Part shown: positions 25,804 to 41,559 of the stretch, one piece after another
How the letters are laid out: every line of letters starts with the position of its first letter
Position numbering within the stretch: the stretch's first letter is position 1
Assembly (NCBI RefSeq): GCF_004212215.1
Contig: NZ_QVFV01000001.1
Location: 380,811-444,810 of the forward strand
Direction of reading: 5' to 3'
Source of the DNA: Leptolyngbya iicbica LK
GTDB lineage: Bacteria > Cyanobacteriota > Cyanobacteriia > Phormidesmidales > Phormidesmidaceae
Length of the DNA stretch: 64,000 nucleotides
Position numbers and translations under genes: made by a program
The notes under the pieces: model-generated
The model's database searches: none
Told to the model about the DNA's origin: nothing
What the model saw: only the letters and a program-made list of their open reading frames with translations

Positions 25804-25958
25804 CCACTAGCCCCATGACCTGATGCGCCCGTCAACCGCAAGCGAGCAGCGATCGCCTTGCGACCTAAACCGCTTGCGACCCTTCGGCTTCACAATTTAT
25901 TTTGTATTGGCTGATACCAAATATGGCCATAATATATCTATGTTGAGTGGAATCAATC

Positions 25959-26885
25959 ATGACGCAACTGGAAGCCTCTCATGTGATGGCTCGTTTGCAA
26001 GCAGGACAATCGCTCGCCCAAGCAGAGTTGAGTCATCTCAATCTCGATCACAGTTGCTTAGATGGCGGCGATTTTTCGCGGGCTTATTTGCGTCGAGCCC
26101 AGTTGCGGCAGGCTTCTTGTCGAGCGATCGATTTGTCCCACGCAACGTTGGTGTTAGCAGATTTATCTGACAGCGATTTGTCTGATGCAGAACTGTCGGC
26201 AGCGGTATTGACTCAGGCCCGTCTCTGCCGAGCCACGCTACAAGGGGCTGTCGCCAAAGCGGCCAAGGTTTATGAGGCCGATTTGACCCAGGTGAACGCT
26301 CGCCAGTCCTGTTTCGATAAGGCGGATTTAAGAGGTATCCAAGCGACGCGATCGCATTTCGAAGGCGCATCCTTGATTTCGGCTCAACTGGATGAATCAA
26401 ATTGCAGTCGCTCGACCTTTGCCAATGCCCGCTTGCGCGATTCGTCTTGGTCGTCAGCCATGCTGGTGGGCGTGTCGTTTGCAGGGGCGCAACTTTCGCA
26501 AGCGAGACTCGGCCAAGCCTTGCTGATGGGGAGCAACTTTTCTGAGGCGGATTTGCTGAGTTGTGACCTGTCAGAAGCTGATTTGACGGGCGCGGTGTTG
26601 ATCGCCGCACAACTCGACTGGGCCGATTTGTGGAATGCGGTATTGATGGGGGCAAATCTGCGCCAGGCGTCGCTTTACGGCACTAATTGCGAATCGGCAA
26701 ACTTAAGTTTGGCCAATTTCAGCGGGGCCGATTTGCGAGAGGCCAATTTTGAAAAGGCTCAACTCAATGGGGCTTGTTTTGATCAGGCGATCGTGCGCGG
26801 CGCTTTGTTTACCGATGCGTCAGGGCTGACGGATGAGCAGAAGCAATGGTTGCGGCAGCAGGGCGCGCTGAATTTGGATCGGTAG
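25959..26885 (+). CDS. Pentapeptide repeat protein
   Basis: The 308-residue protein is almost entirely tandem pentapeptide repeats (pattern A(D/N)LxxA, for example DLSDSDLSDAELSAAVL and ANFSGADLREANFEKAQLNG), from about residue 25 to 290. It should fold as a right-handed quadrilateral beta helix. A short N-terminal helix (MTQLEASHVMARLQAG) and a C-terminal cap containing TDEQKQWLRQQGAL, resembling the SDEQL cap of the kinase's repeat domain, close the rod. The ATG at 25959 follows GAGTGGA and is preferred to an upstream in-frame GTG. No catalytic domain is seen. It lies 181 bases after the kinase gene on the same strand and may be its partner or target. Confidence 0.9.
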   Translation: MTQLEASHVMARLQAGQSLAQAELSHLNLDHSCLDGGDFSRAYLRRAQLRQASCRAIDLSHATLVLADLSDSDLSDAELSAAVLTQARLCRATLQGAVAKAAKVYEADLTQVNARQSCFDKADLRGIQATRSHFEGASLISAQLDESNCSRSTFANARLRDSSWSSAMLVGVSFAGAQLSQARLGQALLMGSNFSEADLLSCDLSEADLTGAVLIAAQLDWADLWNAVLMGANLRQASLYGTNCESANLSLANFSGADLREANFEKAQLNGACFDQAIVRGALFTDASGLTDEQKQWLRQQGALNLDR

Positions 26886-27045: not shown

Positions 27046-27924
27046 TTACTCGCTGTACCAGAAGGCATCGGCGATCGCCCCACCTTCTTCCTCAAAAAAT
27101 TCGATGGGGTTGAGCACGACAATTTGCTGAGTCAGGTCATCGCCTAAGCGGCGCTGCACGCGATCGGGAATGCCGTGACCATAAATGACGTGACCATTGC
27201 CCGCTAGCACGACCACCTGAGTGTCGGGATTAGCGGTTTTGAAGTCGGCGATCGTCATTGCCATGGTTTCATCCCAGGTGACTTGGGCGGCAAAGAAGTT
27301 GTCAAGATTGAAGTCGCCGTGGGCTCCGTGCGCTCCAAACGCAGCGGCGACGAATTCTCGATAGTCTGCGTTGCTGGTGTCAATTTCCTCAAGGGGGGGA
27401 ATGTAGCGAAAGTCATCACCTTCAAGACTTTCCAATCCCTCGCGAGCTACTTGGCGAGTAATTTCTGCTGGCGCATTCAACGCGAGTACAGGCAGGTCAT
27501 GGGCTTGGGCAAAGCGCAGCACAGGCGCATAAAATTCCCAGGGAAAGCCCCACCGCTCCAAATATTCCGTTTGGGCAATCAGCTCTTCTTCGGTAATGTC
27601 GCCTGCCAGGTAGCGATCGATCGCGGGTTGAAACGGGCGCTGAAACATCTCTAGGGCGATCGCCAAATTAGGGTTCTCGGCATAGAGCCCTTCAATAATT
27701 TCTAACTGAGCCGCATGATCAGCCAAACTATCGTGACGCTCGCCCAAATACACCACATCAGCGGTTTGCAGGGCTTTAAAGGTTTCGTCTTGAATACTGG
27801 AAATGGCGGCTGGCGACTCGGGTGGAGTCAGGCCATCTTCCGCCGAACAGGCGAGGGGAGACGTCACCAACATGGCCCCCAAGAGCGCCCAACCCAAACC
27901 CCATTGCCGCAAACGTGATGTCAT
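27046..27924 (-). CDS. ChaN-like haem-binding lipoprotein
   Basis: The 292-residue protein matches the ChaN family (haem-binding uptake-type, also DUF399): VVYLGERHDSLADHAAQLEI, LAIALEMFQRPFQPAIDRYLAG, YLERWGFPWEFYAPVLRFA and VVVLAGNGHVIYGHGIP. The signal peptide ends in a lipobox with Cys26 (TSPLACSA), so it is a lipoprotein. In Campylobacter, ChaN binds paired haems, and the conserved His and Tyr residues here could do the same. It is last in a minus-strand run, 11 bases after the small gene 27936-28154, downstream of the thioredoxin and haem-protein genes. A haem link fits this context. Confidence 0.9.
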   Translation of the reverse strand: MTSRLRQWGLGWALLGAMLVTSPLACSAEDGLTPPESPAAISSIQDETFKALQTADVVYLGERHDSLADHAAQLEIIEGLYAENPNLAIALEMFQRPFQPAIDRYLAGDITEEELIAQTEYLERWGFPWEFYAPVLRFAQAHDLPVLALNAPAEITRQVAREGLESLEGDDFRYIPPLEEIDTSNADYREFVAAAFGAHGAHGDFNLDNFFAAQVTWDETMAMTIADFKTANPDTQVVVLAGNGHVIYGHGIPDRVQRRLGDDLTQQIVVLNPIEFFEEEGGAIADAFWYSE

Positions 27925-27935
27925 GATGCCAGAAA

Positions 27936-28154
27936 TTAATAAGTTGGCCGATTCATTGTGCAGTATAGGGTCAGTGCTGCCGTGCTCGCCAAAATCGTGG
28001 CGGTCGTCACATCACAGCCCATGAGCGCAAACGCCTGATAGCTCAGTAAACAAAAGACGCCAGTGCTACCGAGGGGAGTGGTCAAAAATTCCCCGAACTC
28101 CACCAGTTCTTCCAGCAGTTTCAAAAAATGCAGCAAGCGGTTGAGAATGGCCAT
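27936..28154 (-). CDS. Small hydrophobic protein in the thioredoxin-ChaN run
   Basis: The 72-residue frame starts MAILNRLLHFLKLLEELVEF. The N-terminal third is an amphipathic Leu/Glu helix. The rest has two short hydrophobic stretches (about 31-47 and 50-66, GVFCLLSYQAFALMG and TATILASTAALTLYC), probably a membrane hairpin. The ATG at 28154 follows AAAGGGG at 8 bases. A longer open frame to 28403 overlaps the preceding small gene and is not protein-like. It sits 5 bases after one gene and 11 before the next, a strong sign of translation in an operon. No family is recognised. Confidence 0.6.
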   Translation of the reverse strand: MAILNRLLHFLKLLEELVEFGEFLTTPLGSTGVFCLLSYQAFALMGCDVTTATILASTAALTLYCTMNRPTY

Positions 28155-28159
28155 GATCG

Positions 28160-28381
28160 TCACCCCTTTTGTGTGAGCGAAAAACTGGAAAGGTTGCGAG
28201 AATGCTGCTTCTCGGCTCGGGTCAGCTGGGGATTGCCTGGCGACTGCTGCCAGGGATGAGCCATTTGCAGCATATGTCGTTGCAACCCGGAAACGTAGCC
28301 ACTGATGCGCCCAGTTCTTAGGACTGGGTCGATCGCTGGGCGATCGCGGCGGGTTCGGTTGATCAATCCTTGAGACATCAT
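28160..28381 (-). CDS. Small basic hypothetical protein
   Basis: This 73-residue frame starts MMSQGLINRTRRDRPAI. It is rich in Arg, Gln, His and Ser and has no membrane segment or Cys. The ribosome site GAGGG lies 5 bases before the ATG at 28381, which decides the start. The stop is 5 bases before the next start codon. Both points argue for a real gene, though no family is known to me. It follows the thioredoxin gene by 51 bases and is probably cotranscribed with it. Confidence 0.55.
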   Translation of the reverse strand: MMSQGLINRTRRDRPAIDPVLRTGRISGYVSGLQRHMLQMAHPWQQSPGNPQLTRAEKQHSRNLSSFSLTQKG

Positions 28382-28432
28382 CAATTCCCTCAATCAACGG
28401 CAATCATGGATTCATAAAACTGAGGCGATCGC

Positions 28433-28912
28433 TTAAAGCAGCGGCTGCAGGCGTTCGACGAGCACTGACTTAGGCACTTTGCCGACAAAGGTTTCGGTGA
28501 TCGCACCATCGCTTTGGCGCAGCACCAGATGCGGCACGCCCGTCACATTGAACTGCTGTACCTGCTCGCGCCATTGAGGATCATCGATATCCAACATGAC
28601 GAAGTTGAGCGCCGCCCCATAGTCTTGATGGATGGCTTGCAACGTGGGGGCCATGCCCTGACAGGTGGTACACCAGTCGGCATAAAACTCGATTAAGGTC
28701 GGTTTGCCGTTGGCGATCGCCGTTTCGTAAGGCGTCGCAGTTTGGGCACTGGCTTTGAGCGTCATCAAGCCCGATACCGGCGAAAGACTCTGCGCCCCGG
28801 TAACCGGACGGGTGAGCCAAAACGCCGCGATCGCAAAGGTGGCGATGAGGGCGATCGCCCACAGGCTGCGGCGATTGACGTCTGAAGTGGCAGAAATACG
28901 ATTCACGGTCAT
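28433..28912 (-). CDS. Membrane-anchored thioredoxin (TxlA/HCF164-like)
   Basis: The 159-residue protein has an N-terminal membrane anchor (about 17-34, LWAIALIATFAIAAFWL), then a thioredoxin domain with the active site WCTTC and cis-Pro in VTGVPHLVLR. TLIEFYADWCTTCQGMAP is the family core. This matches TxlA of cyanobacteria and HCF164 of chloroplasts, a lumen-facing thiol reductase that keeps apocytochrome c haem-binding Cys reduced. That role fits the multihaem cytochrome and CcsA/ResB-type genes nearby. It starts the run of two small proteins and ChaN, 107 bases after the globin gene. Confidence 0.92.
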   Translation of the reverse strand: MTVNRISATSDVNRRSLWAIALIATFAIAAFWLTRPVTGAQSLSPVSGLMTLKASAQTATPYETAIANGKPTLIEFYADWCTTCQGMAPTLQAIHQDYGAALNFVMLDIDDPQWREQVQQFNVTGVPHLVLRQSDGAITETFVGKVPKSVLVERLQPLL

Positions 28913-29019
28913 AGGTTTGGGTAGAACGATGAATGCAGAATTTAAGTCAAGCGATCGCGGGATTCCGCCCCGTCACCAGACGTCCCTGGCAACTGTCTAC
29001 AGCAACATCCTGGTTGCAA

Positions 29020-29550
29020 TTACTCTTGGGTGCCGTACTTAAAGTGGGTGGTCGATTCGACTAACTTGCGCAGGGTCGGACTCGACTCACCGTACAAATC
29101 TAGCCACTCGTAAAAGGTCAATTCCCCATCCAGCAAATCTTCCGAGTGCGCAGCCCCCTGCTGCATGATGTCGCTAATGGTGCGATACGCCCCCATCCAC
29201 GCCTGAGCTACCTCTGGCGTCCAGTCTGAGCCTAAAAAGTCTTCAAACGCTTCCAGCAACGCTTGCCCCACATAGGGATAGTGCTCGGCCATCGTCCCTT
29301 TGGTCACGTGATAAGCGCCCAAACCTTGCAGGGCATGGCCTAACGCATCTGGATTGTGCAAATTTTCGACAATCAGTGCCAGCGAAGCGACGAGCTTCTT
29401 TTCCATCAGCTCCAAACTGAGGTCGCCAAACAGGGGCTCAATATCCGGGTGCTTAGCAAACAAATGCTGATGAAAGCAGTTCGAAAACGCCATCGCATTC
29501 GGTTTGACTTTGGCAAAGCTGTCTTCCAGCAAACGAATCTGGTCGGTCAT
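29020..29550 (-). CDS. Single-domain globin
   Basis: This is a 176-residue protein with a globin fold like the haem domain of flavohaemoglobins. It has LLEDSFAKVKPNAMAFSNCFH (A helix), SLALIVENLHNPDALGHALQGLG, then the proximal-His region with His81 in AYHVTKGTMAEHYPYVG and LLEAFEDFLGSDWTPEVAQAW. No FAD/NAD reductase domain, signal peptide or membrane segment is present. A C-terminal extension (about 140-176, DGELTFYEWLDLYGESS) lies beyond the globin core. It is related to, but clearly diverged from, the two globin domains of the 33144-34142 gene in the same cluster. Binding of O2, NO or CO is expected; the partner reductase is not visible. Confidence 0.93.
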   Translation of the reverse strand: MTDQIRLLEDSFAKVKPNAMAFSNCFHQHLFAKHPDIEPLFGDLSLELMEKKLVASLALIVENLHNPDALGHALQGLGAYHVTKGTMAEHYPYVGQALLEAFEDFLGSDWTPEVAQAWMGAYRTISDIMQQGAAHSEDLLDGELTFYEWLDLYGESSPTLRKLVESTTHFKYGTQE

Positions 29551-29642
29551 GAGATTTTAGTCGTAGTACGCCAGGATGATTTGCGATACCCACCGCTCAA
29601 CGCGGTTGCCTAACCACTGCAAAAAAGTCGTCATGGAAGTCA

Positions 29643-30374
29643 CTAGTAGTAATAAGCCAGAGCAATATGAAACACGAGCATGACGACGAAAACCGCGACA
29701 AAAAAGATATGACTGGTGAGCCAGACCGCTCGTAAGCCACGAATCAGAGGGCCTTTGGTGAGCACGGTGCCGGAACCCGGCAATTTGCCAAAGTAACTGC
29801 GGGTGGATTCTAAAACGCCTGTTTCAGCCACAACTCCCACTAACGCGGTCAGGGTGGTGGCAAAAAAGACCCAAAGAAACACGGCGTTAAAGTTGAGGCC
29901 ATTGGCTCCCAGGGTGTGGATGAGCACGACCGCCAGCAAGCCAACCCCCGCAAAGATGTGCAGGCTGCGCCATAGCATCATCGACCCTGGTAGTTTGATA
30001 CTGGCGATCCAACCCCGGCCGCGTTTACGCACGGTGAGCAACATCTCTAGAACGACAAACAGGAGGGTGGCATAGCCGGTGCTCTGTTTGTACAGTTCCC
30101 CGCGAATGAACTGATGCAGGTCGAAAGACTGCGATCGCAACCAATCAAAATAGGCATCACTCAACGCAAAGGGCACCAACAAGGCCGCCGTCAATAGCGT
30201 CAACCCAATTAAGACTTTGAATCCAGGCTGAATACCTCGAGGCCGCATCGGTTTGCGCCGTTGGGGAGCGATCGCTGCAGCCGGACTGGCGAGGTCATCC
30301 CCAGTATTAGAACTGGTCGCCGCCGACAGTTGCGCCGTGTCAGCGATGTCGCGGGAGTGAGAAGGCTTGCTCAT
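29643..30374 (-). CDS. Four-histidine membrane cytochrome b-like protein
   Basis: The 243-residue protein has a basic 50-residue N-terminus and five probable membrane segments (about 53-71, 100-115, 136-155, 163-183, 217-240). His139 and His153 lie in one helix and His222 and His236 in another, each pair 14 residues apart: the pattern of a b-type cytochrome with two stacked haems across the membrane. It has LHIFAGVGLLAVVLIH and SHIFFVAVFVVMLVFH. It is shorter than cytochrome b6 and lacks its quinone motifs. It could move electrons between the quinone pool and the exported cytochromes of the cluster. Gene order places it between the Tll0287-like and single-globin genes. Confidence 0.8.
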   Translation of the reverse strand: MSKPSHSRDIADTAQLSAATSSNTGDDLASPAAAIAPQRRKPMRPRGIQPGFKVLIGLTLLTAALLVPFALSDAYFDWLRSQSFDLHQFIRGELYKQSTGYATLLFVVLEMLLTVRKRGRGWIASIKLPGSMMLWRSLHIFAGVGLLAVVLIHTLGANGLNFNAVFLWVFFATTLTALVGVVAETGVLESTRSYFGKLPGSGTVLTKGPLIRGLRAVWLTSHIFFVAVFVVMLVFHIALAYYY

Positions 30375-30898
30375 GACTTAAGAGATAAAAAAGCAATAGA
30401 AAAGCGGGATAGCGAGGTCATCGGTCGTTGGTCAATAGCCCCAAAGCATAGACCCCAGAAAACTGAAGAAAACCTTAAGTCCCTTGGCGACTATATCGAC
30501 AGGTGGAACCCGGAATTGCTAACTGTGAACCTCATCACTATCCGTTGTGGTCATATAACAGTCCGCAGTAAGTACCAACAGGCAAGGGGCTTAAGCCCCT
30601 TGTTCAGCAGCATGGGGATGTACGGAGCTATTTACGCGGCGCTATACGAAGTCATGTCTCAAGAACAGCAATAACTGCTAACTGGCCCAGGGAGGTAGAG
30701 AAGGGAGGTGGTGACTCCCCCCTCTAGTTGGCTTCACTAGGAGATGTGAAGTGCTAGTTCCCAGGTAACTAGCGTCAGCGGTGATTTACCCATTGAGTAA
30801 ATGCACCATTCGCTTTTGGGGAACAACTGACCGCTCATTGCGAATCGGCCCGTTTTTGACCACCAGACTCCCCAAAAATCCCGATTAGCAATTAGCGC
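30375..30898. other. Structured spacer: four inverted repeats in 220 bp
   Basis: Four stem-loops occur in a row: 30583-30602 (perfect 20-bp palindrome CAAGGGGCTT/AAGCCCCTTG), 30696-30726 (TAGAG plus GGGAG stems with a 2x2 internal loop), 30753-30773 (GCTAGTT-N7-AACTAGC) and 30784-30802 (ATTTAC-N7-GTAAAT). The first belongs to a repeat shared with 39.4-39.6 kb. The rest may be terminators, an mRNA-stabilising structure or a small RNA. No reading frame of note is present. Confidence 0.55.
30562..30651. repeat. Dispersed repeat, family B, intact copy
   Basis: From TCCGCAGTAAG through the 20-bp palindrome to ACGGAGCTATTTACGCGGCGC it resembles the two halves of a copy at 39404-39612: TCCGCAGT at the left, AGCCCCT in the middle, and ACGGAGC-ATCTGCGCAACGCTATACGA at the right. 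Confidence 0.55.
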
Positions 30899-31549
30899 TT
30901 AAGCGCCTGCCAGGGGAATGTTGATTACCACGCCACCCATGACGTCATCAACGACAAACTGCTTGTCGGGATAGCGCTCCAGGTGGACGGGGTGAGTATT
31001 GTGGCAAGACGCACAAGCTTCTGCCACGGCGATGTCGGGATACATGGCCGAGAAATACTGCTGACCCCCAATTTCTTGGTAATCTTTCACCGGCTCACCA
31101 GTCTCGATCATGGTATTGACAGCCGTTTCCTCAAATTCTCCTTTAGGTGCATGGCTATCGTTGATATACCAAGGAGAAATCAGGTTATAGGTGAAATACC
31201 CTTTTTCGTTGGCAATCTCAGAACCCAGGCGGAACATTTGAGCAGGCAACGGAATCCCTGAGCCTTGCTGCCAAGCTTCTGTTGCCTCAACGGGCACGAC
31301 ACCATCAGGATTTTCCTTACCTTCAAGGACGTTAACGCGGCTCACCACATGGCGAGTGTAAGCAGTCCGGTCAGCTTCCATGACCGTATGAATGTAATCA
31401 GCCACCAACTCAGGGGCAATGCCTGCAGAAGCGGTAGCAGTAGTACCGCCGCCACAAGCAACAGCAGTGACAGCCACCGCCATAATGATTGCGATGAAAG
31501 CCACTACGCGCAGGCGCAGGGTATTCATCCATTTTCCTACGAGTGTCAT
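30899..31549 (-). CDS. Tll0287-like (DUF3365) monohaem lipoprotein
   Basis: The 216-residue protein has a membrane signal ending in the lipobox VTAVAC (Cys32), so it is lipid-anchored on the lumen or periplasmic side. The rest is a Tll0287-like/DUF3365 domain: PELVADYIHTVMEADRTAYTRHVV, YFTYNLISPWYINDSHAP and, near the end, one haem site CASCH (Cys179-His183) in AEACASCHNTHPVH. The fold is known from a Thermosynechococcus haem protein and from sensor ectodomains. Its partner is unknown; the cluster suggests an electron carrier or redox sensor. The ATG at 31549 follows GGAGA. The hexahaem gene is 113 bases upstream. Confidence 0.92.
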   Translation of the reverse strand: MTLVGKWMNTLRLRVVAFIAIIMAVAVTAVACGGGTTATASAGIAPELVADYIHTVMEADRTAYTRHVVSRVNVLEGKENPDGVVPVEATEAWQQGSGIPLPAQMFRLGSEIANEKGYFTYNLISPWYINDSHAPKGEFEETAVNTMIETGEPVKDYQEIGGQQYFSAMYPDIAVAEACASCHNTHPVHLERYPDKQFVVDDVMGGVVINIPLAGA

Positions 31550-31662
31550 TTGACTTGTCTCCTCTGTTTAGAAATCAGCAAACGGATTTGCGAACGTTAC
31601 GTGATCGTGATGTGGGGTGTGAAATTGTTCGTGGGATACGAACGCTGGATTTGACGATCGCC

Positions 31663-32475
31663 CTAACCATCCCCTTGATCGGTGCGTCGCGATTCAAAGT
31701 CGCGCACCAGCTCAAAGGTTTCCATGGCCAAGGTCGGGGGGGCATCAAAGTTGGCCTCCACCAAGTCATCGTCAAAAATGCTGTTGTAGCTGTACTCCAT
31801 GCCGTGGCAGTTCATACACACGTCTTTGACCATGCGATCGCGGGGCAATAACGTGTACGTGTTGTTGTGATTGACCAGCGTCACCGCATTGTCGCCAGAG
31901 CCGGTCTGATGACGCGGCAGGTGACAGGTCGCACAACTGACCGAACTAGCCGAAGGGCGAGGTAAATCGCGATCGGCGGCAAAGAGCTCAGCATGGCGCG
32001 AGTTGCCATAGTTCAAGGAATGATTGTCGCTGTGGCAGCTCAGACAAGAATCGACCGCCGCTTGCACCGTGTTCACCGAGTGCACGTCATGACAGCTATT
32101 ACAGGTCATTTGTCGATTCATCGCGTCCGGCTGCATCGGGAGTCGAGCCATTGCGGGCGTGAGGGGTGTCTGCCCTTCCAACATCCGAATGCCGTGCTGA
32201 CCGAGTAAGAAGGTATCAACATCCTGCTCGTGGCAGGTCTGGCAGCTTTCGATCCCGGGCTGCGCCACAAATTCCTTCGTCTCCTTGGATTCATGACAAC
32301 TCGAACAATTGATTTCGTTAAAAGCGTGGGCACTGGTTTGCCACAGCTGAGTGGCTTCATCAATCTGGGCCTGATCGACTGGATTGGCCCAAGCTGGTGC
32401 GCCCCAACCCCAGGTGAGCCCCGCCACCATGCCAACGATGATCGCCAGGCGGCCCAATGAGAGCATCAGAGTCAT
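31663..32475 (-). CDS. Exported hexahaem cytochrome c
   Basis: The 270-residue protein has a signal peptide cleaved after AWA (residue 30) and six CxxCH sites (Cys57, 78, 125, 144, 181 and 220). Extra His residues (QHG, NHSLNYGNSRHAELF, PRHQ, NHNN) can supply distal haem ligands. The CQTCHEQDVDTFLLGQHG stretch resembles the MtrA/DmsE type of multihaem electron conduits. No CxxCK site or NrfA-type catalytic motif is seen, so it looks like a wire, not a nitrite reductase. Its ATG overlaps the stop of the pentahaem gene by four bases (ATGA), and GGGAGGTGGG precedes it: coupled translation and a working pair. It should be soluble in the periplasm or lumen. Confidence 0.95.
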   Translation of the reverse strand: MTLMLSLGRLAIIVGMVAGLTWGWGAPAWANPVDQAQIDEATQLWQTSAHAFNEINCSSCHESKETKEFVAQPGIESCQTCHEQDVDTFLLGQHGIRMLEGQTPLTPAMARLPMQPDAMNRQMTCNSCHDVHSVNTVQAAVDSCLSCHSDNHSLNYGNSRHAELFAADRDLPRPSASSVSCATCHLPRHQTGSGDNAVTLVNHNNTYTLLPRDRMVKDVCMNCHGMEYSYNSIFDDDLVEANFDAPPTLAMETFELVRDFESRRTDQGDG

Positions 32476-33116
32476 GTCCCACCTCCCAAAAACTCTTGGG
32501 TGAGGTCAGGAGTCGGAGCCGTCTCTAACTTGGTAAACACAGTGCGATCGGGGAGCTGCTGCACGGGCAACATCGGCGGCTGATCGATGTTTTCAATCAA
32601 AAAGCCAGTCGATATTGAACGGTGATCGTGATAGTTATGACAACCCGCCGTCCAGCAGCCATCAGCGGCAAACCCGTCATGACTCTTGAGACCGCCCTCA
32701 ATAATCCCTTGGTGACAGTTCATACAGAGATCAGGCTGCAAATGCACTCCCCGCCCAAACATATGGACATGCTCGTTGTGGCAGGTCGTGCAAGTCAGCG
32801 CCTCGATTTTCTCCAGTTCTCCGGCCCACCGGGGGTCCCGAAATTTGCTGGCCCCATGCTTGTCTTCAGCCATCTCCGCTTCGTGACAGCGCATACAAGT
32901 TTCGTTGCTCACCGGCTTGAATCCCTCATGGCAAGAAGCACAAGAAGTTTCAAAGATGTAATGGCCGACCGAAGTCTCTCCAGGTAAAAAGACCTGCTTG
33001 TTATCCAGCGCAAAGGCTGCTCCAAACCAGGCCACCAGGCCAATACACACCAGGACGATCGCGGTTTTCAAATTCAGCCAAGACCGCCATCTAAATATTT
33101 GGCTTCTCAACGCCAT
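32472..33116 (-). CDS. Membrane-anchored pentahaem cytochrome c with a CX4CH site
   Basis: The 214-residue protein starts with a basic stretch and one membrane helix (about 18-37), like NapC/NrfH-type anchors. It has four standard CxxCH sites (Cys59, 74, 109, 131) and one CX4CH site (Cys154-His160, CWTAGCH), a spacing known from cytochromes c3 and related multihaem proteins. His residues HVH, HDHR and KSHDG can be distal ligands. The haem domain faces the lumen or periplasm. It is 27 bases after the double-globin gene and overlaps the hexahaem gene by four bases. It probably takes electrons at the membrane and hands them to the hexahaem protein. Confidence 0.93.
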   Translation of the reverse strand: MALRSQIFRWRSWLNLKTAIVLVCIGLVAWFGAAFALDNKQVFLPGETSVGHYIFETSCASCHEGFKPVSNETCMRCHEAEMAEDKHGASKFRDPRWAGELEKIEALTCTTCHNEHVHMFGRGVHLQPDLCMNCHQGIIEGGLKSHDGFAADGCWTAGCHNYHDHRSISTGFLIENIDQPPMLPVQQLPDRTVFTKLETAPTPDLTQEFLGGGT

Positions 33117-33143
33117 CGATCTTGCTCCGTGCAGTCTCCAGCG

Positions 33144-34142
33144 TTAAACCAACAAAAATAGGACGATTAGCGCAATGGCCCCACCGCCAATGACCCCCGC
33201 GGCAGCGCCGGTGCTGATATTGCTCTCCGGGGCTTCCACGGTGGCCACTGAGTCCAGCTGCACATCCGCCTGGTTGTAGTCGGCTCCCTTCAGCATCACT
33301 TCGGTAATCAGCCCGTAGGCATCAATCCAAGCCTGCTTGACTTCAGCCGTCCAGTCATTGCCGAGAAACTGTTCAAAGGTTTTGAGCAAGGAATTACCCA
33401 CGAGCGGATAGTGCTCCGGTAAAGCGCCATACTTGACATGACGAGCGCCCAAGCCTTCCAACGCTCCGGTCAGCTTGCCAGGGTCGCGCAGGTTTTCCAC
33501 TACAAAAACGAGAGAATCCAGCAGCATTCTTTGCTGCTTGGCCATGTTGGTGTGCGTGAATAAAGGCTTAGCAGCAGGATAGTCGGTGAATAAGTTGCCG
33601 TAGAATCCCTCAACAAACTCATTTGCCCGGGGAGCGACCTTGCCGAAGCTTTCTTCCAAAAGCTGAATCTTGAGCCCCGTAGCTTCATCTACCTCAGCGG
33701 CTGAGGACTCGAGCTGAACGGCCGCTTGGTCATAATCAGCCCCTTCGAGCATGACTTCAGTAATGACGCCGTAGGCATCAACCCAAGCCTGCTTGGTTTC
33801 AGGAGTCCAGTCTTCTCCCAGATACTGCTCAAAGGTCTTTAGCAGTGAGCTGCCCACCAGAGGATAATGCTCTGGCAGCGCCCCGTACTTGACGTGACGG
33901 GCTCCCAAGCCCTTGAGCGCACCGGTCAGTTCACCGGGTCGGCGCAGGTTTTCGACCACAAACACGAGTGATTTGAGCAACTTGCCGCCCTGCTCTTCCA
34001 TGTTGGAATTGGCAAATAGGGGCTTGGCCGCAGGGTAATCGGTAAAGAGGTTGCCATAAAAACTTGCGACAAACTCATTAGCTTGCGGTTTGACTTTCTC
34101 GAAACTGTTTTCTAAAAGTTCAACTTGCAACTCATTCGCCAT
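33144..34142 (-). CDS. Tandem double globin with C-terminal membrane anchor
   Basis: The 332-residue protein contains two globin domains (about 5-140 and 157-292), very similar to each other. Both carry GLGARHVKYGALPEHYPLVG, with proximal His83 and His235. After a short linker comes one hydrophobic segment at the C-terminus (about 311-332, GAAAGVIGGGAIALIVLFLLV). There is no N-terminal signal, so the globins should lie in the cytoplasm, tail-anchored to a membrane. No reductase domain is present. It is first in the minus-strand run that continues with two multihaem cytochromes 27 bases downstream. Electron exchange with them would have to cross the membrane, perhaps through the cytochrome b-like protein. 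Such an arrangement is unfamiliar to me. Confidence 0.93.
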   Translation of the reverse strand: MANELQVELLENSFEKVKPQANEFVASFYGNLFTDYPAAKPLFANSNMEEQGGKLLKSLVFVVENLRRPGELTGALKGLGARHVKYGALPEHYPLVGSSLLKTFEQYLGEDWTPETKQAWVDAYGVITEVMLEGADYDQAAVQLESSAAEVDEATGLKIQLLEESFGKVAPRANEFVEGFYGNLFTDYPAAKPLFTHTNMAKQQRMLLDSLVFVVENLRDPGKLTGALEGLGARHVKYGALPEHYPLVGNSLLKTFEQFLGNDWTAEVKQAWIDAYGLITEVMLKGADYNQADVQLDSVATVEAPESNISTGAAAGVIGGGAIALIVLFLLV

Positions 34143-34518
34143 TAATTTTCTCCAACTCTCCTAGCTTGGACAATTAAACAAGAACAGACAGGAATCAAAA
34201 CTCGAAACTCTTTGAAGACAGGCAACCTTATCGGCCAGAAATGACCGGAAGCTCAAAAACCTTAAAGGACTTTTACCTGACTAAAAGCCATCGATCTAAA
34301 TTCCTAATTTTCAGACATCTTGCGAAAAAGACAGCTGCCGCAATCATTACCACCTGCCTCACAAACTCGAGCGAAGCCAACCAACTACTCAGTTCCAGAG
34401 ACGTCAATAAATTGACAAGTGGTTAGCGGTCTCCACTTGAATGCACTGACCCTAGTGGAAGTCAAAGGTGATTTTTTGTAACAAGAACAACTAAACATAA
34501 ATTCGTTATTCACCTTTC

Positions 34519-34533
34519 GCATTGAATCAATGC
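34519..34533. promoter_or_regulatory. Palindrome GCATTGA-A-TCAATGC
   Basis: Perfect 7+1+7 inverted repeat midway in the divergent spacer. The half sites resemble FNR halves (TTGA/TCAA), but the spacing is one base, not the six of an FNR box, so the binding protein is unknown. Confidence 0.4.
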
Positions 34534-34786
34534 ACTTTCGCCATATTCACTCAACCAGGCTCTATGACTCAGGAAATCGGCATGCGAATGAGCCTGTGCA
34601 TGGGCTTTTGAGGCGAAAGTCTGAGCGAGCAAGAATGATTAAGGGAATCGAGAATTTCTAGGGACGGCAATTTTATCAATGTGACAGCAAATTTAATGGC
34701 TGAGATTGAACAGAGATTAAGTCAACAAGAGTCCATGCATTTATTGCGCTTATTCAATGTAAAAATTGCATTGACTGATGTTTTCG

Positions 34787-34800
34787 GTAGTTGCGAATAC
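34787..34800. promoter_or_regulatory. NtcA-like site GTA-N8-TAC upstream of the ResB-like gene
   Basis: The match to the NtcA core is exact (GTA GTTGCGAA TAC), 74 bases before the start codon. A clear -10 box at the usual 22-base distance is lacking (TATGTA lies 27 bases away), and such cores occur by chance every few kb. Confidence 0.3.
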
Positions 34801-34873
34801 AGAAGCGATCGCTGCCCTCGTTGAGGCTATGTAGCAACTTCTTTGTGATGGTTTTGCTCTGCTAGATTTTGCT

Positions 34874-36691
34874 ATGGAATCTAAAATTTTCCGGTTTTTA
34901 GGCTCAATTCGACTGGCAGTGCCATTGTTAGTCGCGATCGCAATCATTTTGATTGGGGCGACTTTTTATGAGTCCGAAGTGGGCTCAGCGACAGTCCAGC
35001 GGGAGATCTATAAAAGCGCTTGGTTTGGCGCTTTAATGTTTCTACTGGCGGTGAATTTAGGCATTTCAACCCTCAGTCGCTTTCCCTGGAAAGGGCCGCG
35101 AAAAATCGGTTTTGCTTTAACCCACTGGGGATTGATTGTGATCATTGCCGGATCGGCAGCAGTCATTCACCTCAGCACGGAAGGCATGTTGCTGGTGCGG
35201 ACTGACAGTGGCCCTGGCAGCCAAATTCGCGTTGAGGGCGACTTATTAGAGGTGGTGGCGCCTGACCAAACCCGGCAACAGACGGATATTTTCATCAAGT
35301 CCGACGGTTCGGTCTATCCTCGCCAGTTTGGGGGCCTGTCACTGCTGGGCTATAGCGATAACGCCATCAAGACGGTGCAGTTTACCAATGATGGCGCGGT
35401 CGAAAATCTGGCGGTGCAGGTGCAGTTGCAGAGCGATCGCATGGGGCAAACTCTGGAGCGATGGTTGGCCGTAGCGCCTGCGGCTTATAGCCAGATGGAC
35501 ATTGGCCCAGCTCACCTAGAGCTCTTTGAAGCGCGGGATGAAGCCGAGTTGCAGCAGCTATTGCAGGCCCCCGATGCAGAGCAGAGCCCCATGGGGACAT
35601 TGGCGATCAGCCAAATTGCGGGCCAAAGCCGAGATCGCGCCATTGATGTATCAAAAGCGTTAGGACAAACGCTGGCGTTAAGTCCTGACCTGTCTTTAAC
35701 CGTGGCTAACGTTTGGCCGGACTTTCGCCTGGGCAGCGACGGCCAGCCGACCTCCGCGTCGGATCAGTATCGGAATCCAGCCGTGCAGCTAGTGGTGACG
35801 CAAGGCGAACTGCAAGAACGGTGGTTTGTGTTTGGCAAAGCGGGGCTGCCGCCAGTGCGATCGGACGACCAGATTGCGTTAGCCCTCACTTATGAGCCGC
35901 CCGCCGCCACTCCGACGGATTACTTCCGACTGGTGGCCGCGCCTAATCATCAACTCTTTTACGCCGCCGCCTCTTCTAAAGGCTTTAAATCGGGTGAATT
36001 CTTGCCGGAGCAGTCGGTAACACCGGGCTGGGCCGACTTTGAGATTTCGCTGGCTCAACAGTTAGACCACGCCCAGGTGCAGCGTCAAATCGTGCCGGTG
36101 ATGCCAGTGGCTCAGGGGGCAGTGCCCGCAGAGGGGTCACCCGCCTTGCATGTGGCGACTGCCGACGGTCAAGATTTTTGGCTGCCCTGGGGCGAACCCA
36201 CCGAGTTAGATACGCCTAACGGTGAGTATTTTGCTGCGTTCACCCCGAAGCTGCTGGAACTGCCCTTTTACGTGAAGCTCAACGATTTCATTGTGGAACG
36301 GAACGAGGGCAGCGAGTCGGTGGCGATGTGGACGAGCGACATTACCCTATTTGACGCTCAGACGGATACGGCAGTGCAGCGATCAGTGTGGATGAATCAT
36401 CCCACCTGGTTCCGGGGGTGGAAGCTGGCCCAAGCGTCTTGGAATCCCGGCGATTTACAACAGTCCACTTTGCAACTCAAGCGCGAACCCTGGTGGGTGA
36501 CGGCACTGACCTGGACGGGGTCACTGCTCGTGGTGATCGGCATTGTGGTGATGTTCTACGGGCCGAGTCTGGTGAAGCGGTGGCGACGGTGGACGCGATC
36601 GCCCCAACCGGAGTCAGAACCAACTGTGGAGGAAAACTCTGGCGAAAAGGCCGTCGGCACGATTCCCATATTGGCGGTGTTTGGCAAGTAG
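34874..36691 (+). CDS. ResB/CcsB-like cytochrome c biogenesis protein
   Basis: The 605-residue protein has three N-terminal membrane helices (about 14-32, 52-70, 86-105), a large exported domain (about 110-545) and a fourth helix (about 550-572). The His of GFALTHWGLIVIIAGSAAVIH is the conserved membrane His of ResB. The exported domain is long, and its layout resembles the ResB half of the fused CcsBA synthases of Bacteroidetes and epsilon-proteobacteria more than the usual cyanobacterial Ccs1. With the CcsA-like protein 187 bases downstream it should export haem and attach it to CxxCH sites. The ATG at 34874 is the first. The nearby multihaem cytochromes are obvious clients. Confidence 0.85.
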   Translation: MESKIFRFLGSIRLAVPLLVAIAIILIGATFYESEVGSATVQREIYKSAWFGALMFLLAVNLGISTLSRFPWKGPRKIGFALTHWGLIVIIAGSAAVIHLSTEGMLLVRTDSGPGSQIRVEGDLLEVVAPDQTRQQTDIFIKSDGSVYPRQFGGLSLLGYSDNAIKTVQFTNDGAVENLAVQVQLQSDRMGQTLERWLAVAPAAYSQMDIGPAHLELFEARDEAELQQLLQAPDAEQSPMGTLAISQIAGQSRDRAIDVSKALGQTLALSPDLSLTVANVWPDFRLGSDGQPTSASDQYRNPAVQLVVTQGELQERWFVFGKAGLPPVRSDDQIALALTYEPPAATPTDYFRLVAAPNHQLFYAAASSKGFKSGEFLPEQSVTPGWADFEISLAQQLDHAQVQRQIVPVMPVAQGAVPAEGSPALHVATADGQDFWLPWGEPTELDTPNGEYFAAFTPKLLELPFYVKLNDFIVERNEGSESVAMWTSDITLFDAQTDTAVQRSVWMNHPTWFRGWKLAQASWNPGDLQQSTLQLKREPWWVTALTWTGSLLVVIGIVVMFYGPSLVKRWRRWTRSPQPESEPTVEENSGEKAVGTIPILAVFGK

Positions 36692-36878
36692 GGAGTACGT
36701 GAGTGGATGAGTAGGTGAGGTAAGTGAAGCGGGTGAAGTCGGTAGGTTGATTCAACCGCTTGATGGATGATGTTCGCTTCCCCTGTTCCCGCTCTTTGCA
36801 TTCTGCTATGCCGCTCTCTGAACAACACATCCTAATGTCCGTATTCTGTCTTTTGCATTCTGAACTTCTTATCGCGCT

Positions 36879-38594
36879 ATGAAACTGACAACATTTCTGA
36901 TTGGTTTAGTGTTGGGAGCCGTGCTGTTGGTGATGCCTATCAGCCAGTGGCAGCCCGACGGGTTGGACTCGCTGCGATCGCTCACGGTGCAACTCGACGG
37001 TCGCAAAAAGCCTCTGGATACCGTAGCTCAGGAAACCGTGGCGAAAATTCACGGCTCAACCTCGTACAAATTGGCGGATGGGACGAAAGAAGATGCCCTC
37101 AGCACCTACCTCGCCATGTGGTTTAACACCCGCAACTGGAATGAAGAGCCGTTTGTGCTGGTGAGCTATCGCCCGCTAAAGGAAGCCGCCGGACTGGATA
37201 TCGAGCGCAAGCAGTTCACCTTTCAAGAACTGATGGCCAATCGGGAACTGGCGGGGATTGTCAGTGAGGCCCATCGCAAAGAACTGAACGACGTCGATCT
37301 CAGCCGCAATGAGCGCGAGGCGCTAACCATTGAAGGGCGTTTGAATCTGCTGTATCAGTCGGTGGGCGATCGCCAGTTGCCAATTGTGCCGCATCCCGAC
37401 GACATCAAAGGCAAGTGGGGCAGCCTCGACGAAACCGCCAAACTCTACACCCCAGAGCAAGCCGCACCGCTATTGGCGGCATTTGCCATGATGCAGCAAA
37501 CCTTATTGCAGGGCGGCGCGACCCACATTCCCATGGTGGCCGATTTGGCCAGTCAGCTCAAAGCGGGACTCCAGCAGTTGAGTCCTGAGATCTATCCTGC
37601 CGATGCGGTGATGGGTCGCGAAGTGCATTTCAATCATTTCCATCCTTTTGCCAAGGCGTGGCAGCTGTATGCGATCGCCTTCACCGTCTTGCTCGTCAGC
37701 CAGTGGATCAAACGCTGGAATGTGTATTGGACCGCGATCGGCCTTTTCACCGCTGGCATTGCGGTTCAGAGCTATGGCTTCTTCCTGCGGATGCAGATTG
37801 CGGATCGGCCCCCCGTGACCAATATGTATGAGTCCGTCGTTTGGTGCGGGTTTGGCATTATGGCGATCGCCCTGCTGCTGGAAGTGTTTTCGCAAAAGCG
37901 CTTTTACCTGCTAGCCGCCGCCCCCCTTTCAGTAGTATGTCTGGTGTTGGCCGATAGCCTGCCCGCCGTGCTCGATCCCAGCATTGCGCCGCTGGTGCCC
38001 GTCCTCCGCGACAACTTCTGGCTCAGCATTCACGTTCCCACCATTACCCTCAGTTATGCCAGTTTTGCCCTGGCCCTCGGCGTCGGTCACGTGGCCCTGT
38101 TCAACTATTTGTTTACGCCCCAGGCCAAGCAACGCATCAAAACGCTGTCTCAGCTGAACTATCGGGTCTTACAAGTCGGGGTGCTATTGCTGACTGCGGG
38201 CATCATCCTCGGCGGCATTTGGGCGCACTTCTCTTGGGGCCGCTTTTGGGGCTGGGATCCGAAGGAAACCTGGGCGCTGATTGCGTTGCTCTGCTATTTG
38301 GCACCGCTGCACGGTCGCCTCGTGGGGTGGCTGGGTGACTTCGGCATTCATGTCGCCAGCATCGTGTCGTTTAATGCAGTGTTAATGGCCTGGTACGGCG
38401 TAAACTTCGTGCTGGGGACGGGGCTGCACAGCTACGGCTTTGGCACCGGGGGTTCTGAATTGCTGATTGCCAGCGTGGTTGGCCTGGATTTGCTCGTTGT
38501 GCTGGCCACTGCCGCCCGTCATTACGGCTGGTTTAAGCGCTCAGAGCCGTTGACCACGGCAGAAAATCTGGAGCAGTCAATGAGCCAGCTATAG
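36879..38594 (+). CDS. Long CcsA/ResC-like cytochrome c synthase subunit
   Basis: The 571-residue protein has a membrane segment (5-22), a 220-residue exported domain beginning RSLTVQLDGRKKPLDTVA, and then about eight membrane helices with the tryptophan-rich haem-binding WWD motif (WGRFWGWDPKETWALI). The two haem-ligand His are in FWLSIHVPTITLSYASF and GTGLHSYGFG. Normal cyanobacterial CcsA is about 320-350 residues; the extra N-terminal domain with LDGRKKPLDT is the part usually found at the ResB-CcsA junction of fused CcsBA proteins. The two genes therefore look like a split CcsBA. It is 127 bases before the Rieske gene. Confidence 0.9.
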   Translation: MKLTTFLIGLVLGAVLLVMPISQWQPDGLDSLRSLTVQLDGRKKPLDTVAQETVAKIHGSTSYKLADGTKEDALSTYLAMWFNTRNWNEEPFVLVSYRPLKEAAGLDIERKQFTFQELMANRELAGIVSEAHRKELNDVDLSRNEREALTIEGRLNLLYQSVGDRQLPIVPHPDDIKGKWGSLDETAKLYTPEQAAPLLAAFAMMQQTLLQGGATHIPMVADLASQLKAGLQQLSPEIYPADAVMGREVHFNHFHPFAKAWQLYAIAFTVLLVSQWIKRWNVYWTAIGLFTAGIAVQSYGFFLRMQIADRPPVTNMYESVVWCGFGIMAIALLLEVFSQKRFYLLAAAPLSVVCLVLADSLPAVLDPSIAPLVPVLRDNFWLSIHVPTITLSYASFALALGVGHVALFNYLFTPQAKQRIKTLSQLNYRVLQVGVLLLTAGIILGGIWAHFSWGRFWGWDPKETWALIALLCYLAPLHGRLVGWLGDFGIHVASIVSFNAVLMAWYGVNFVLGTGLHSYGFGTGGSELLIASVVGLDLLVVLATAARHYGWFKRSEPLTTAENLEQSMSQL

Positions 38595-38720
38595 GTCAGT
38601 TTCGATCGACGCGGAGTTGCGAGAGTTGCAAGCCGCTAGGCGCTGTCCTGGTCAACTTCTGCAACCGCATCGCCAAAGGCATACACTGTCATATCAAGCA
38701 TTGATGAGGAGAACATTTCG

Positions 38721-39185
38721 ATGAATCGACGTGATTTTGTGAATTGGATGGGCGTGGGCGCATTGGCGACTTCTCTGCCAGTCGCTCTAGCAGCTTGTGG
38801 TTCCGATACGGCGGAAGCGCCCGCCGATGCCCCGGCTGACAATACGGCGGCAGCCCCCGCTGATGATGCCGCTGCGGCCGATGGCTTTGAGTCGATTGGG
38901 ACAGTCGCAGAACTCGACGAAGCGGGTGCCCTGGCTAGCAGCAACTTCCAGGGCACACAGGTCGTGGTCACGCGATCGCCCGATAATCCTGACACCCTCA
39001 TTGCGGTCGATTCTCTCTGCACGCACCAGGGCTGCACAGTCGATTGGGATGGCAGCGCCTTCGCTTGTCCTTGCCATGCCTCCATGTTCAATCCTGATGG
39101 CACCGTGGCATCTGGCCCCGCCAGTGCCCCGCTCCCCGTTTACGAAGCCAAAATTGAAGGCGACCAAGTGTTGGTCAAAGTCTAG
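38721..39185 (+). CDS. Tat-exported Rieske iron-sulfur lipoprotein
   Basis: The 154-residue protein begins MNRRDFVNWMG, a twin-arginine signal, and has a lipobox VALAAC (Cys26). A long Ala/Asp/Pro linker (27-55) leads to a Rieske domain. The 2Fe-2S ligands are Cys100 and His102 in CTHQGC and Cys116 and His119 in CPCH, with Cys105/Cys118 as the disulfide. It has SMFNPDGTVASGPASAPLPVY, typical of the small arsenite-oxidase or stand-alone type. It is not the b6f PetC, which has a membrane helix and is coded with petA. As a lipid-anchored lumen or periplasmic protein it could pass single electrons to or from the multihaem cytochromes. The ATG follows GAGGAGA. Confidence 0.92.
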   Translation: MNRRDFVNWMGVGALATSLPVALAACGSDTAEAPADAPADNTAAAPADDAAAADGFESIGTVAELDEAGALASSNFQGTQVVVTRSPDNPDTLIAVDSLCTHQGCTVDWDGSAFACPCHASMFNPDGTVASGPASAPLPVYEAKIEGDQVLVKV

Positions 39186-39612: not shown

Positions 39613-39883
39613 CTGAGGCTAAAAGAACCCGATCCCTCAATACTTGCCGCTTCCCCCGTTCATCTTTCAAGGGATCGCGATCGCTCTACGAACCATTGCG
39701 CTGCCCCTAAACATGGCTCGGAAAAGGTTCCTTGCAACATTCCGGCGATCGCCAGACCATTGACCCCGTCGTGGCTGTGCTGCCGCGATCGCAGTCCCAA
39801 CCACGACCAGTAGCGTGAGGCATTTTCACCATTTAAATTTCACGTTAAGGTATCGAAGTAACTTTTACGCACTCACTGGCGCT

Positions 39884-40375
39884 GTGATTAAGTCTCGTTG
39901 CCCGGTTCCACCAGAACAGTTGCCCATCAACCAATACGAAGACATGCGCGACTCCTGGTTTTATGCCTGGGGCAGCCGAGACTTGGGTAGCTATCTGAAA
40001 CCCATCGTGATTTTGTGGTTGGTGAGTTGGGCCGTGACGGGACCGATGGTGGGCGCGAGTTATGCGCCGGGGCGCTATCCCCTGTCATTTAGCTTATTGG
40101 CCGCTGCCGGGGCCTGCATTTTGCCCATGCTCTCCCTAGCGCAGCTCTACGTGGGATGGTTTCACATCGGTCAGCGCCTCCAGCAAGCCGCCGTGCCCTA
40201 CGAAGAGTCAGGCTGGTATGACGGTCAAACCTGGTTCAAGCCAGAAGAGGTGCTCAATCGCGATCGCCTCATTATGGATTACCAAGTCAAACCCATCTTG
40301 CAGCGAGTTCGCAATACTTTAGCGTTGCTGCTAGGGATTGCAGTAGCATTGGTCATAGCTTGGAAAGTTCTGTAA
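39884..40375 (+). CDS. CGLD27/DUF1230 family membrane protein
   Basis: The 163-residue protein starts at a GTG (VIKSRCPVPPEQLPIN), the usual N-terminus of the DUF1230 family (CGLD27 in green algae and plants, linked to photosynthesis and iron response). The SWFYAWGSRDLGSYLKP motif follows, then two membrane helices (about 41-60 and 71-95), the YVGWFHIGQRLQQAAVPYEESGWYDGQTWFKP signature and a last helix near the end. An upstream GTG at 39815 would add 23 residues not seen in relatives. It stands alone. Thylakoid location is likely. Confidence 0.88.
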   Translation: MIKSRCPVPPEQLPINQYEDMRDSWFYAWGSRDLGSYLKPIVILWLVSWAVTGPMVGASYAPGRYPLSFSLLAAAGACILPMLSLAQLYVGWFHIGQRLQQAAVPYEESGWYDGQTWFKPEEVLNRDRLIMDYQVKPILQRVRNTLALLLGIAVALVIAWKVL

Positions 40376-40415
40376 GCCGTTGCCTTTATGACCCCTGTAT
40401 GTGAGAGTCTTAGTC

Positions 40416-41369: not shown

Positions 41370-41559
41370 AACGGGCGTTGCCCACACCCTTGAGTCACGG
41401 CTCAGAGTCTAATGACTCCTCGGTGGCTGCTTGGCCGCTGGAGTCATGCCCACAGTCCCTGGCAACAGGCTGCGAGCATTGGGCCGACGACGCGACCAAT
41501 AGGATCGGCAGCGCTATCGTTAGCCCCTGAGCCAGTCAGACTCTCTATAATTAGGGGCG

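Follow-up and report, generated by a model that had tools for sequence, protein, structure and literature searches.

The window analysed here, a stretch of 64,000 nucleotides from the cyanobacterium Leptolyngbya iicbica LK (GCF_004212215.1, contig NZ_QVFV01000001.1, positions 380,811 to 444,810 of the forward strand), carries two divergent runs of haem and redox genes which form one inherited module and which, it is tentatively proposed, encode globins wired through a membrane cytochrome b to exported multihaem cytochromes. Coordinates given below are those of the window. All ten haem and redox open reading frames (ORFs) that the original prediction had clustered between 28433 and 39185 are in place, and their families were assigned with Pfam and NCBIfam, the cytochrome b being recognised by four invariant histidines. 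On the minus strand the order is tandem globin, pentahaem cytochrome c, hexahaem cytochrome c, Tll0287-like lipoprotein, cytochrome b, single globin, thioredoxin, a small ORF and a ChaN-family gene (gaps in the same order of 27, -4, 113, 524, 92, 107, 29 and 11 bp), the last two genes (27046-28403) extending the run beyond the left edge first drawn for it. ResB, CcsA and Rieske genes follow each other on the plus strand, transcribed divergently and separated by 187 and 126 bp. Above the Pfam cut-offs the proteins match Tll0287-like, Cytochrom_c3_2 (both multihaem proteins), ResB, Cytochrom_C_asm, thioredoxin and Rieske, and the three predicted globin domains are found as two Globin matches in the tandem protein and one in the single globin. 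The predicted 12 covalent haem sites (5+6+1) are likewise correct, with the refinement that the fifth site of the pentahaem protein is a CX4CH motif.

That these genes belong together is indicated by their joint distribution. Among 95 relative genomes, the pentahaem protein is found in 22 (a weak match in genome G069, at E 2.3e-4, was dropped before counting), the long CcsA in 22 (threshold E below 1e-200) and the cytochrome b in 24; all three are present in 19 genomes, one or two in 6 and none in 70. The six partial genomes (G001, G008, G010, G020, G026 and G031) are all drafts of 380 to 1840 contigs. Fisher tests of the co-occurrence give p near 1e-16, calculated over related and hence non-independent genomes, and within the 95 the long CcsA is confined to genomes with the module or part of it. 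The genes are also physically close: those for the pentahaem protein and cytochrome b share a contig in 20 of 21 pairs, 1.6-2.4 kb apart, and those for the pentahaem protein and CcsA in 16 of 20, 2.8-6.5 kb apart, the remaining pairs lying on different contigs. Across the phylum the module is patchy, since the pentahaem protein occurs in only 3 of 386 genomes drawn evenly from it (five weak matches, E 7.6e-5 to 7.5e-4 and covering at most 56 positions, having been dropped).

Gene order is conserved together with gene content. The order globin-pentahaem-hexahaem-Tll0287-cytochrome b recurs in 20 named cyanobacterial loci, including those of Halomicronema, Leptolyngbya, Nodosilinea, Xenococcus, Acaryochloris, Spirulina, Prochloron, Symploca and Roseofilum, a missing member corresponding to the end of a contig or locus. 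With the window removed, and with many loci cut by contig ends, the 20 loci contain the hexahaem gene 20 times, Tll0287 20, cytochrome b 19, pentahaem 18, globin 17, thioredoxin 14, a pentapeptide-repeat protein 10, ResB 9, CcsA 9, ChaN 7 and Rieske 6. Three placements of the ResB-CcsA pair are seen: Leptolyngbya-group loci have it divergently upstream of the core, Acaryochloris has it upstream and co-directional, and Roseofilum has it downstream. The long CcsA is found in 16 of 17 module genomes searched, the exception being Symploca SIO3C6; in this sample G290 and G472 are probably one genome (their coordinates are identical) and G460-G464 repeat genomes of the 95. Scattering among relatives, which the original prediction had named as telling against a module, is not seen for the core. 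It is seen in part for the CcsA-Rieske set, which is present but unlinked in at least two genomes, SBLK and Spirulina, where CcsA lies on another contig despite 10 kb being covered on both sides of the core. In Xenococcus and Prochloron a contig ends near the core, so that position does not decide the linkage. CcsA adjoins Rieske and pentapeptide-repeat genes in SBLK, Spirulina and Prochloron, and also ResB in Prochloron, whereas no Rieske, pentapeptide or ResB gene was found beside the CcsA of Xenococcus. The idea of a single module, put forward from the window, is therefore borne out by co-occurrence, by togetherness through three gene arrangements and by an operator-like element common to the two runs.

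This element emerged from an alignment of upstream regions as a tandem palindrome of 37 bp, ATGCA-N5-TGCAT-N7-ATGCA-N5-TGCAT. Its consensus was taken by eye from the ResB regions and the globin side of five loci, and the scores of those regions are therefore partly circular. Among ResB regions, 11 of 22 beat all 60 shuffles, eight of these with the palindrome at -137 to -140, and both Acaryochloris loci, despite their different gene arrangement, have it in front of ResB (none of 60 shuffles reaches the score). On the globin side 16 of 26 regions beat all 100 shuffles (mean score 15.1 out of 20 against 11.6), including loci L087, L018, L019 and L021, in which ResB is not divergent. Out of 15 divergent globin/ResB intergenic regions, 14 have at least one site scoring 15 or more and 6 have two, where the null is about 0.01 per region; the count is made per region because the best matches of the two sides coincide in L010, L093 and L094, and a lone palindrome in a divergent region may serve both sides. 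Mean scores in control regions, taken upstream of CcsA, cytochrome b, Rieske, TxlA, Tll0287 and the pentapeptide gene, are close to those of the shuffles, with two single exceptions in L004 (Tll0287, 13/20) and L010 (pentapeptide gene, 17/20). Within the window, matches beyond the two best (17 and 16) score at most 14. Control by NtcA, considered on account of a GTA-N8-TAC site 87 bp before ResB, was dropped as the site is not conserved; of 25 upstream regions, 4 have an NtcA-type site at 86-88 bp, 2 have one at 108-109 bp and 2 have one at a greater distance.

The two multihaem cytochromes are strongly conserved at their haem sites. Four CXXCH motifs and one CX4CH (in the forms CWTAGCH, CWTGGCH or CWAAGCH) are present in 38 of 38 pentahaem rows read (the copy in the window, L024, is among them, and certain genomes are represented twice), and 5 of the 13 conserved histidines of this protein lie within the motifs. 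Six CXXCH motifs are found in 38 of 39 hexahaem rows; the remaining row (L023) is a fragment with three. In a larger alignment (n=55), 12 histidines pass the 85% level, each present in 55 of 55 rows, six of them in the motifs and six elsewhere. Judging by this conservation, the haems of both proteins can all have two histidine ligands; no open catalytic c haem is thus evident among the six of the hexahaem protein, leaving the globins as the obvious open haems of the module. Over short stretches the hexahaem protein matches profiles of the NrfA/octahaem nitrite reductase and MtrA/DmsE kinds, and its structure model is poor (pLDDT 56.5). It differs from NrfA and octahaem nitrite reductase in lacking CXXCK and in having candidate histidine pairs for all six haems. 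The Tll0287-like lipoprotein resembles the Tll0287 or haem-Cache family in its PF11845 match above cut-off and its one CXXCH, conserved in 12 of 12 rows, but is set among membrane electron-transfer genes. Its sole conserved cysteine outside the motif is the lipobox Cys32, which leaves none for Cys/His ligation and separates it from the Tll0287 subtype with cysteine as second axial ligand. Sequence search did not reach the solved structures of Tll0287 homologues. Haems that look open to O2 or NO are found in the globins and perhaps in this haem-Cache protein.

In the membrane cytochrome b, His139, His153, His222 and His236 are invariant in 13 of 13 aligned rows, with the members of each pair (139/153 and 222/236) 14 residues apart. 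No Pfam model is matched above cut-off, the window protein reaching 12.8 bits with prokaryotic cytochrome b561 (cut-off 30.1) and 16.9 bits with DUF4405 (cut-off 26.7), and a search of solved structures with the cytochrome b profile returned PPR-type proteins only. Hydropathy scanning gives four strong segments, to which our reading would add another near residues 94-115; if the positive N-terminus is inside, one histidine of each pair would lie near each face of the membrane. The membrane proteins of NADPH oxidases and ferric reductases have histidine pairs spaced 13-14 residues apart, and the module's cytochrome b likewise has two pairs in hydrophobic helices, for which two stacked b haems are predicted. 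It differs from them in lacking PF01794, for which four cyanobacterial members were scanned without a match, in the absence of a flavin domain from the cyanobacterial module and in being linked to multihaem cytochromes c and globins. In one database protein, P0191, a globin is fused to a cytochrome b of the module type; no second such fusion was recognised among the best 120 of 407 matches to it. In Prochloron didemni (P0208; L017 2720-3631) the cytochrome b carries an extra N-terminal domain of 98 residues. This domain gives a sub-threshold hit with the penicillinase-repressor (winged-helix) model and was seen neither in the window nor at any other of the 40 loci searched.

The tandem globin has Tyr B10, Phe CD1, Gln E7, His F8 and Tyr G5 in each of its two domains, the positions being mapped by alignment. 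The same pocket is shared by 52 of the 56 distinct domains of the loci (the remaining four are those of the single globin) and occurs in 254 of 256 domains of 119 database relatives and P0191. Of the 119, 103 have two domains, 15 three and one four, and 117 end in a hydrophobic C-terminal segment; they come from the best 120 of 407 matches to P0191, and long tandem globins are over-represented among them for that reason. Single-domain versions without the tail occur in L010 and L019. The best match among solved structures is Hell's Gate globin I, and the only PF00042 domains in the genome of L. iicbica LK are the three of this locus. In the single globin B10 is His and E7 is Met (Gln in L006 and L007); instead of binding gas, this protein may carry electrons with a six-coordinate haem. 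It is absent at this place in the close relative L004. Compared with flavohaemoglobin (Hmp) and the single-domain NO-dioxygenase globins, the tandem globin is of the same class and retains the NO-dioxygenase pocket residues, from which the single globin departs at B10 and E7. Neither window protein has a flavin adenine dinucleotide (FAD)/NAD reductase domain (PF00042 only was found), module globins usually have two to four domains and a hydrophobic tail, and their electron supply is predicted to run through a transmembrane cytochrome b. Globins of this kind act as NO dioxygenases when given an electron donor, and ferredoxin-NADP reductase (FNR)-type reductases recur as such donors (PMC3820574). 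A globin-domain NO synthase (SyNOS) is known from Synechococcus PCC 7335 (PMC6104048); two module genomes, G003 (C7:49351-50775) and G033 (C2:487158-488582), contain SyNOS-like frames of 1468 and 1480 amino acids with NO synthase and globin domains.

The module also includes its own predicted means of haem attachment. Residues 33-547 of the long CcsA align with 406-929 of the cytochrome c biogenesis protein in 7s9y, and the sequence contains WGRFWGWDPKE, a WWD-type motif; with a ResB partner (PF05140) and collinearity with the solved CcsBA, the pair corresponds to a system II synthase of the CcsBA type. At a different place the genome carries another, shorter CcsA-like gene (G000:C2:964874, a 365-aa frame), and such a gene, presumably the housekeeping copy, is found in most genomes near E 1e-19 to 1e-26. 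The long CcsA can therefore be assigned to the module, in agreement with the prediction that the island has its own cytochrome c synthase. The membrane-anchored thioredoxin is likely the reductant of apocytochrome thiols. In Wolinella, separate lyases NrfI and CcsA1 serve CXXCK and CX15CH sites (PMC6976685). The module resembles this case in having its own synthase beside another CcsA, and differs in that the synthase is split over two genes and the unusual motif is CX4CH. The invariant CX4CH and the module-bound long CcsA are both found in the cyanobacteria and neither in the Flammeovirga stretch described below, a single contrast which only suggests that they are linked. Genome G010 has two long CcsA genes (73 and 66% identity) and perhaps two copies of the module.

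A protein-level search of plasmid records found a distant pentahaem relative (24.6% identity, E 2e-4) in Flammeovirga kamogawensis, a member of the Bacteroidota. Its gene lies in the order hemA, globin, DUF3365 (Tll0287-like), a hypothetical protein of 158 amino acids, ferredoxin-NADP reductase and pentahaem (L060 7500-12666), with hemA heading the module as though extra haem synthesis were bundled with it. Against these six proteins the window's globin matches at E 2e-27 and its Tll0287-like lipoprotein at E 1e-8, and profile matches of the pentahaem and Tll0287 proteins reach 97.8 and 98.0% probability. The 158-aa protein is unconvincing by its score against the cytochrome b profile alone (E 0.006, probability 6%), but it spans most of the cytochrome b alignment and its four histidines fall on the four invariant ones; its match to PF01794 is sub-threshold (E 0.46). 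The reductase is of the FAD/NAD(P)H/2Fe-2S type and its gene lies between those of the four-His membrane protein and the pentahaem protein, which has five CXXCH and no CX4CH. No hexahaem protein, ResB or CcsA is annotated in 24.5 kb of Flammeovirga, and a plasmid search with its pentahaem protein returned only itself. This counterpart, a diverged version of the module in another phylum, is known from one genome.

The features of the locus are collected in Table 1. The pentapeptide-repeat gene to the left accompanies CcsA(-Rieske) in many relatives, including those in which these genes are separated from the core. The genes to the right of Rieske (39815-43044, a CGLD27-like gene and two ORFs which we take to be asparaginase-like and an AGCS-type transporter) have no match in the 40 loci compared, and synteny therefore ends there; in a Spirulina stretch (L085) a 46% match to the AGCS-type ORF lies near CcsA.

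Table 1. Genes and putative regulatory elements of the haem module in the window
Feature	Position	Strand	Features and basis of assignment
Pentapeptide-repeat protein	25947..26885	+	PF00805; associated, non-core; 308 aa in most relatives
ChaN-family protein (haem-binding, Tiki superfamily)	27046..27924	-	PF04187, E 3e-71; last gene of the run
ORF without Pfam match	27936..28403	-	homologous stretches in some relatives
Membrane-anchored thioredoxin, WCTTC	28433..28912	-	PF00085 and a hydrophobic segment
Single globin, altered pocket	29020..29550	-	PF00042
Membrane cytochrome b, four His, two b haems predicted	29643..30374	-	conserved His139/153 and His222/236
Tll0287-like (haem-Cache) lipoprotein, one CASCH	30899..31549	-	PF11845
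Hexahaem c cytochrome, exported	31663..32475	-	six CXXCH and six further conserved His
Pentahaem c cytochrome, N-terminal anchor	32472..33116	-	four CXXCH and one CX4CH; 4-bp overlap with the hexahaem gene
Tandem globin, C-terminal hydrophobic segment	33144..34142	-	two PF00042 domains
Operator-like tandem palindrome, globin side	34508..34544	.	16/20 consensus positions
Operator-like tandem palindrome, ResB side	34735..34771	.	17/20 consensus positions
ResB-like half of system II synthase	34874..36691	+	PF05140
Long CcsA-like half of synthase	36879..38594	+	PF01578; aligns with PDB 7s9y
Rieske lipoprotein (CTHQGC...CPCHAS)	38721..39185	+	PF00355; RR and lipobox LAAC

Taken together, these parts can be read as a transmembrane haem wire that feeds the globins. 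The four-His cytochrome b would carry electrons between the exported penta- and hexahaem cytochromes and the cytoplasmic globins. According to the predicted topology, the C-terminal segment would hold the tandem globin at the cytoplasmic face, where the nearby b haem (His139/His222) would be its electron partner, and the other b haem (His153/His236) would contact the pentahaem protein at the opposite face. The hexahaem protein and the haem-Cache and Rieske lipoproteins would lengthen the chain or store electrons, and the thioredoxin and the ResB-CcsA pair would make the c haems of the module, perhaps because of the CX4CH site. With the wired electrons the globins would act as NO dioxygenases, converting NO and O2 to nitrate, in analogy to a flavohaemoglobin whose reductase part has been swapped for a transmembrane haem wire. 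Handling of O2 or NO by the globins on the cytoplasmic side, as originally suggested, is plausible from their pocket residues and predicted topology; electron flow towards the globins, and NO as the substrate, are the least certain part of the scheme. The absence of a reductase from the window's module, the fusion in P0191 and the reductase in Flammeovirga together lead us to favour the wired globin, with a probability of about 0.4 for the scheme as a whole, NO oxidation included. That the module is a new transmembrane haem circuit, with a globin at the inner face, a di-haem cytochrome b, an outer multihaem chain and its own haem-attachment machinery and regulator, common to Cyanobacteriota and Bacteroidota, we consider to have slightly less than an even chance.

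Several observations weigh against this reading. One electron is needed per NO, for which eleven c haems and two b haems in the wire look lavish, and the Rieske and ChaN proteins are left without an explanation. Both the NO/O2 role and the direction of flow are predictions, and the Flammeovirga reductase would also permit electrons to flow outwards. The fusion P0191 is a single protein on a single 5.7-kb contig, and its model (pLDDT 67, pTM 0.42) is too poor to test the b-haem fold; in a structure search with this model the globin matches were no stronger than E 0.0011, and the cytochrome b half matched nothing significantly. The globins are tied to the module less strictly than the cytochromes, since PF00042 proteins occur both in 21 of the 22 genomes with the pentahaem protein and in 10 of the 73 without it. 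The ResB regions of Roseofilum (L019-L021), L086 and L087 have no palindrome. NO synthase, considered as a general companion of the module, was rejected, being found in 2 of 25 module genomes and 2 of 70 others.

In the main rival reading the same membrane chain would run in the opposite direction. An FNR-type reductase on the cytoplasmic side would pass electrons of NAD(P)H or ferredoxin to the cytochrome b, and the two multihaem proteins would deliver them to a periplasmic or lumenal acceptor, as NADPH oxidases and ferric reductases do; the globins would sense or buffer O2 or NO. In its favour, the reductase gene of Flammeovirga lies between the genes of the four-His and pentahaem proteins, the histidine pairs are 14 apart in two helices, and one relative (P0220) is named ferric oxidoreductase domain-containing protein in UniRef. 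It is nevertheless rather unlikely, given that PF01794 is not matched by the four cyanobacterial proteins scanned, that the window's module has no reductase gene, that neither a third PF14537 protein nor an MtrB/PioB porin was found in the genome as recipient, and that the globin domains would be left without a clear job. A further reading is extracellular electron transfer by an Mtr-like conduit, one of the roles first suggested for these genes. The hexahaem protein does match DmsE- and MtrC-type families, below their curated cut-offs. The genome search for MtrB/PioB was negative, with a weak model that rings in 1 of 14 control genomes and exceeds its cut-off in none, and the only two PF14537 proteins of the genome (the multihaem family covered by the search) are both in the module, which makes a conduit of the Mtr type highly improbable.

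Other readings assign the haems to tasks other than transport. One is a sensory complex, with the haem-Cache lipoprotein and the globins as detectors of NO, O2 or redox state and the cytochrome wire as the relay of the signal across the membrane. For it speak haem-Cache domains fused to signalling modules, which behave as NO sensors, a signalling member being NO-binding (PMC12889525), and the extra domain of the Prochloron cytochrome b with its sub-threshold winged-helix match. The preprint that describes these sensors judges stand-alone members of the family redox-like, and the module genes include no kinase, cyclase or regulator, the extra domain occurring, among the window and the loci searched, only in Prochloron; this role is therefore improbable. 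Storage and trafficking of haem or iron, with ChaN, the globins and the multihaem proteins as haem reservoirs, would account for the ChaN-family gene that closes the run and for hemA at the head of the Flammeovirga module. With ChaN in only 7 of the 20 named loci, with histidine ligands and CX4CH conserved as in electron-transfer proteins and with no evident storage role for the cytochrome b or the Rieske protein, it is very improbable. Finally, ChaN, the single globin and Rieske come and go among relatives, as they might in a chance neighbourhood of unrelated haem genes, but this explanation is contradicted by the co-occurrence, and also by the synteny, the repeated operator-like element and the cross-phylum counterpart, and can be given almost no weight.

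The wired globin thus remains the favoured reading. No description of this gene set was found among the papers listed in searches of the open-access literature, as judged by titles and the openings of abstracts, a survey with most subscription papers outside its scope. The parts are known families; their assembly, the counterpart in another phylum and the repeated element appear to be new. Multihaem wires are known mainly from metal- and sulphate-respiring bacteria, and a conserved multihaem pair with a module-bound synthase is now placed inside oxygenic phototrophs, many of which come from mats where O2 and anoxia alternate daily. The invariant CX4CH beside a module-bound CcsA offers a clean test case for why some cells keep a second cytochrome c synthase, and a conserved cytochrome b partner for globins would make the question of their partnership testable. 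If the proposed circuit is real, these cells could run O2 or NO chemistry inside on electrons that are drawn from beyond the cytoplasm and kept on a dozen haems.

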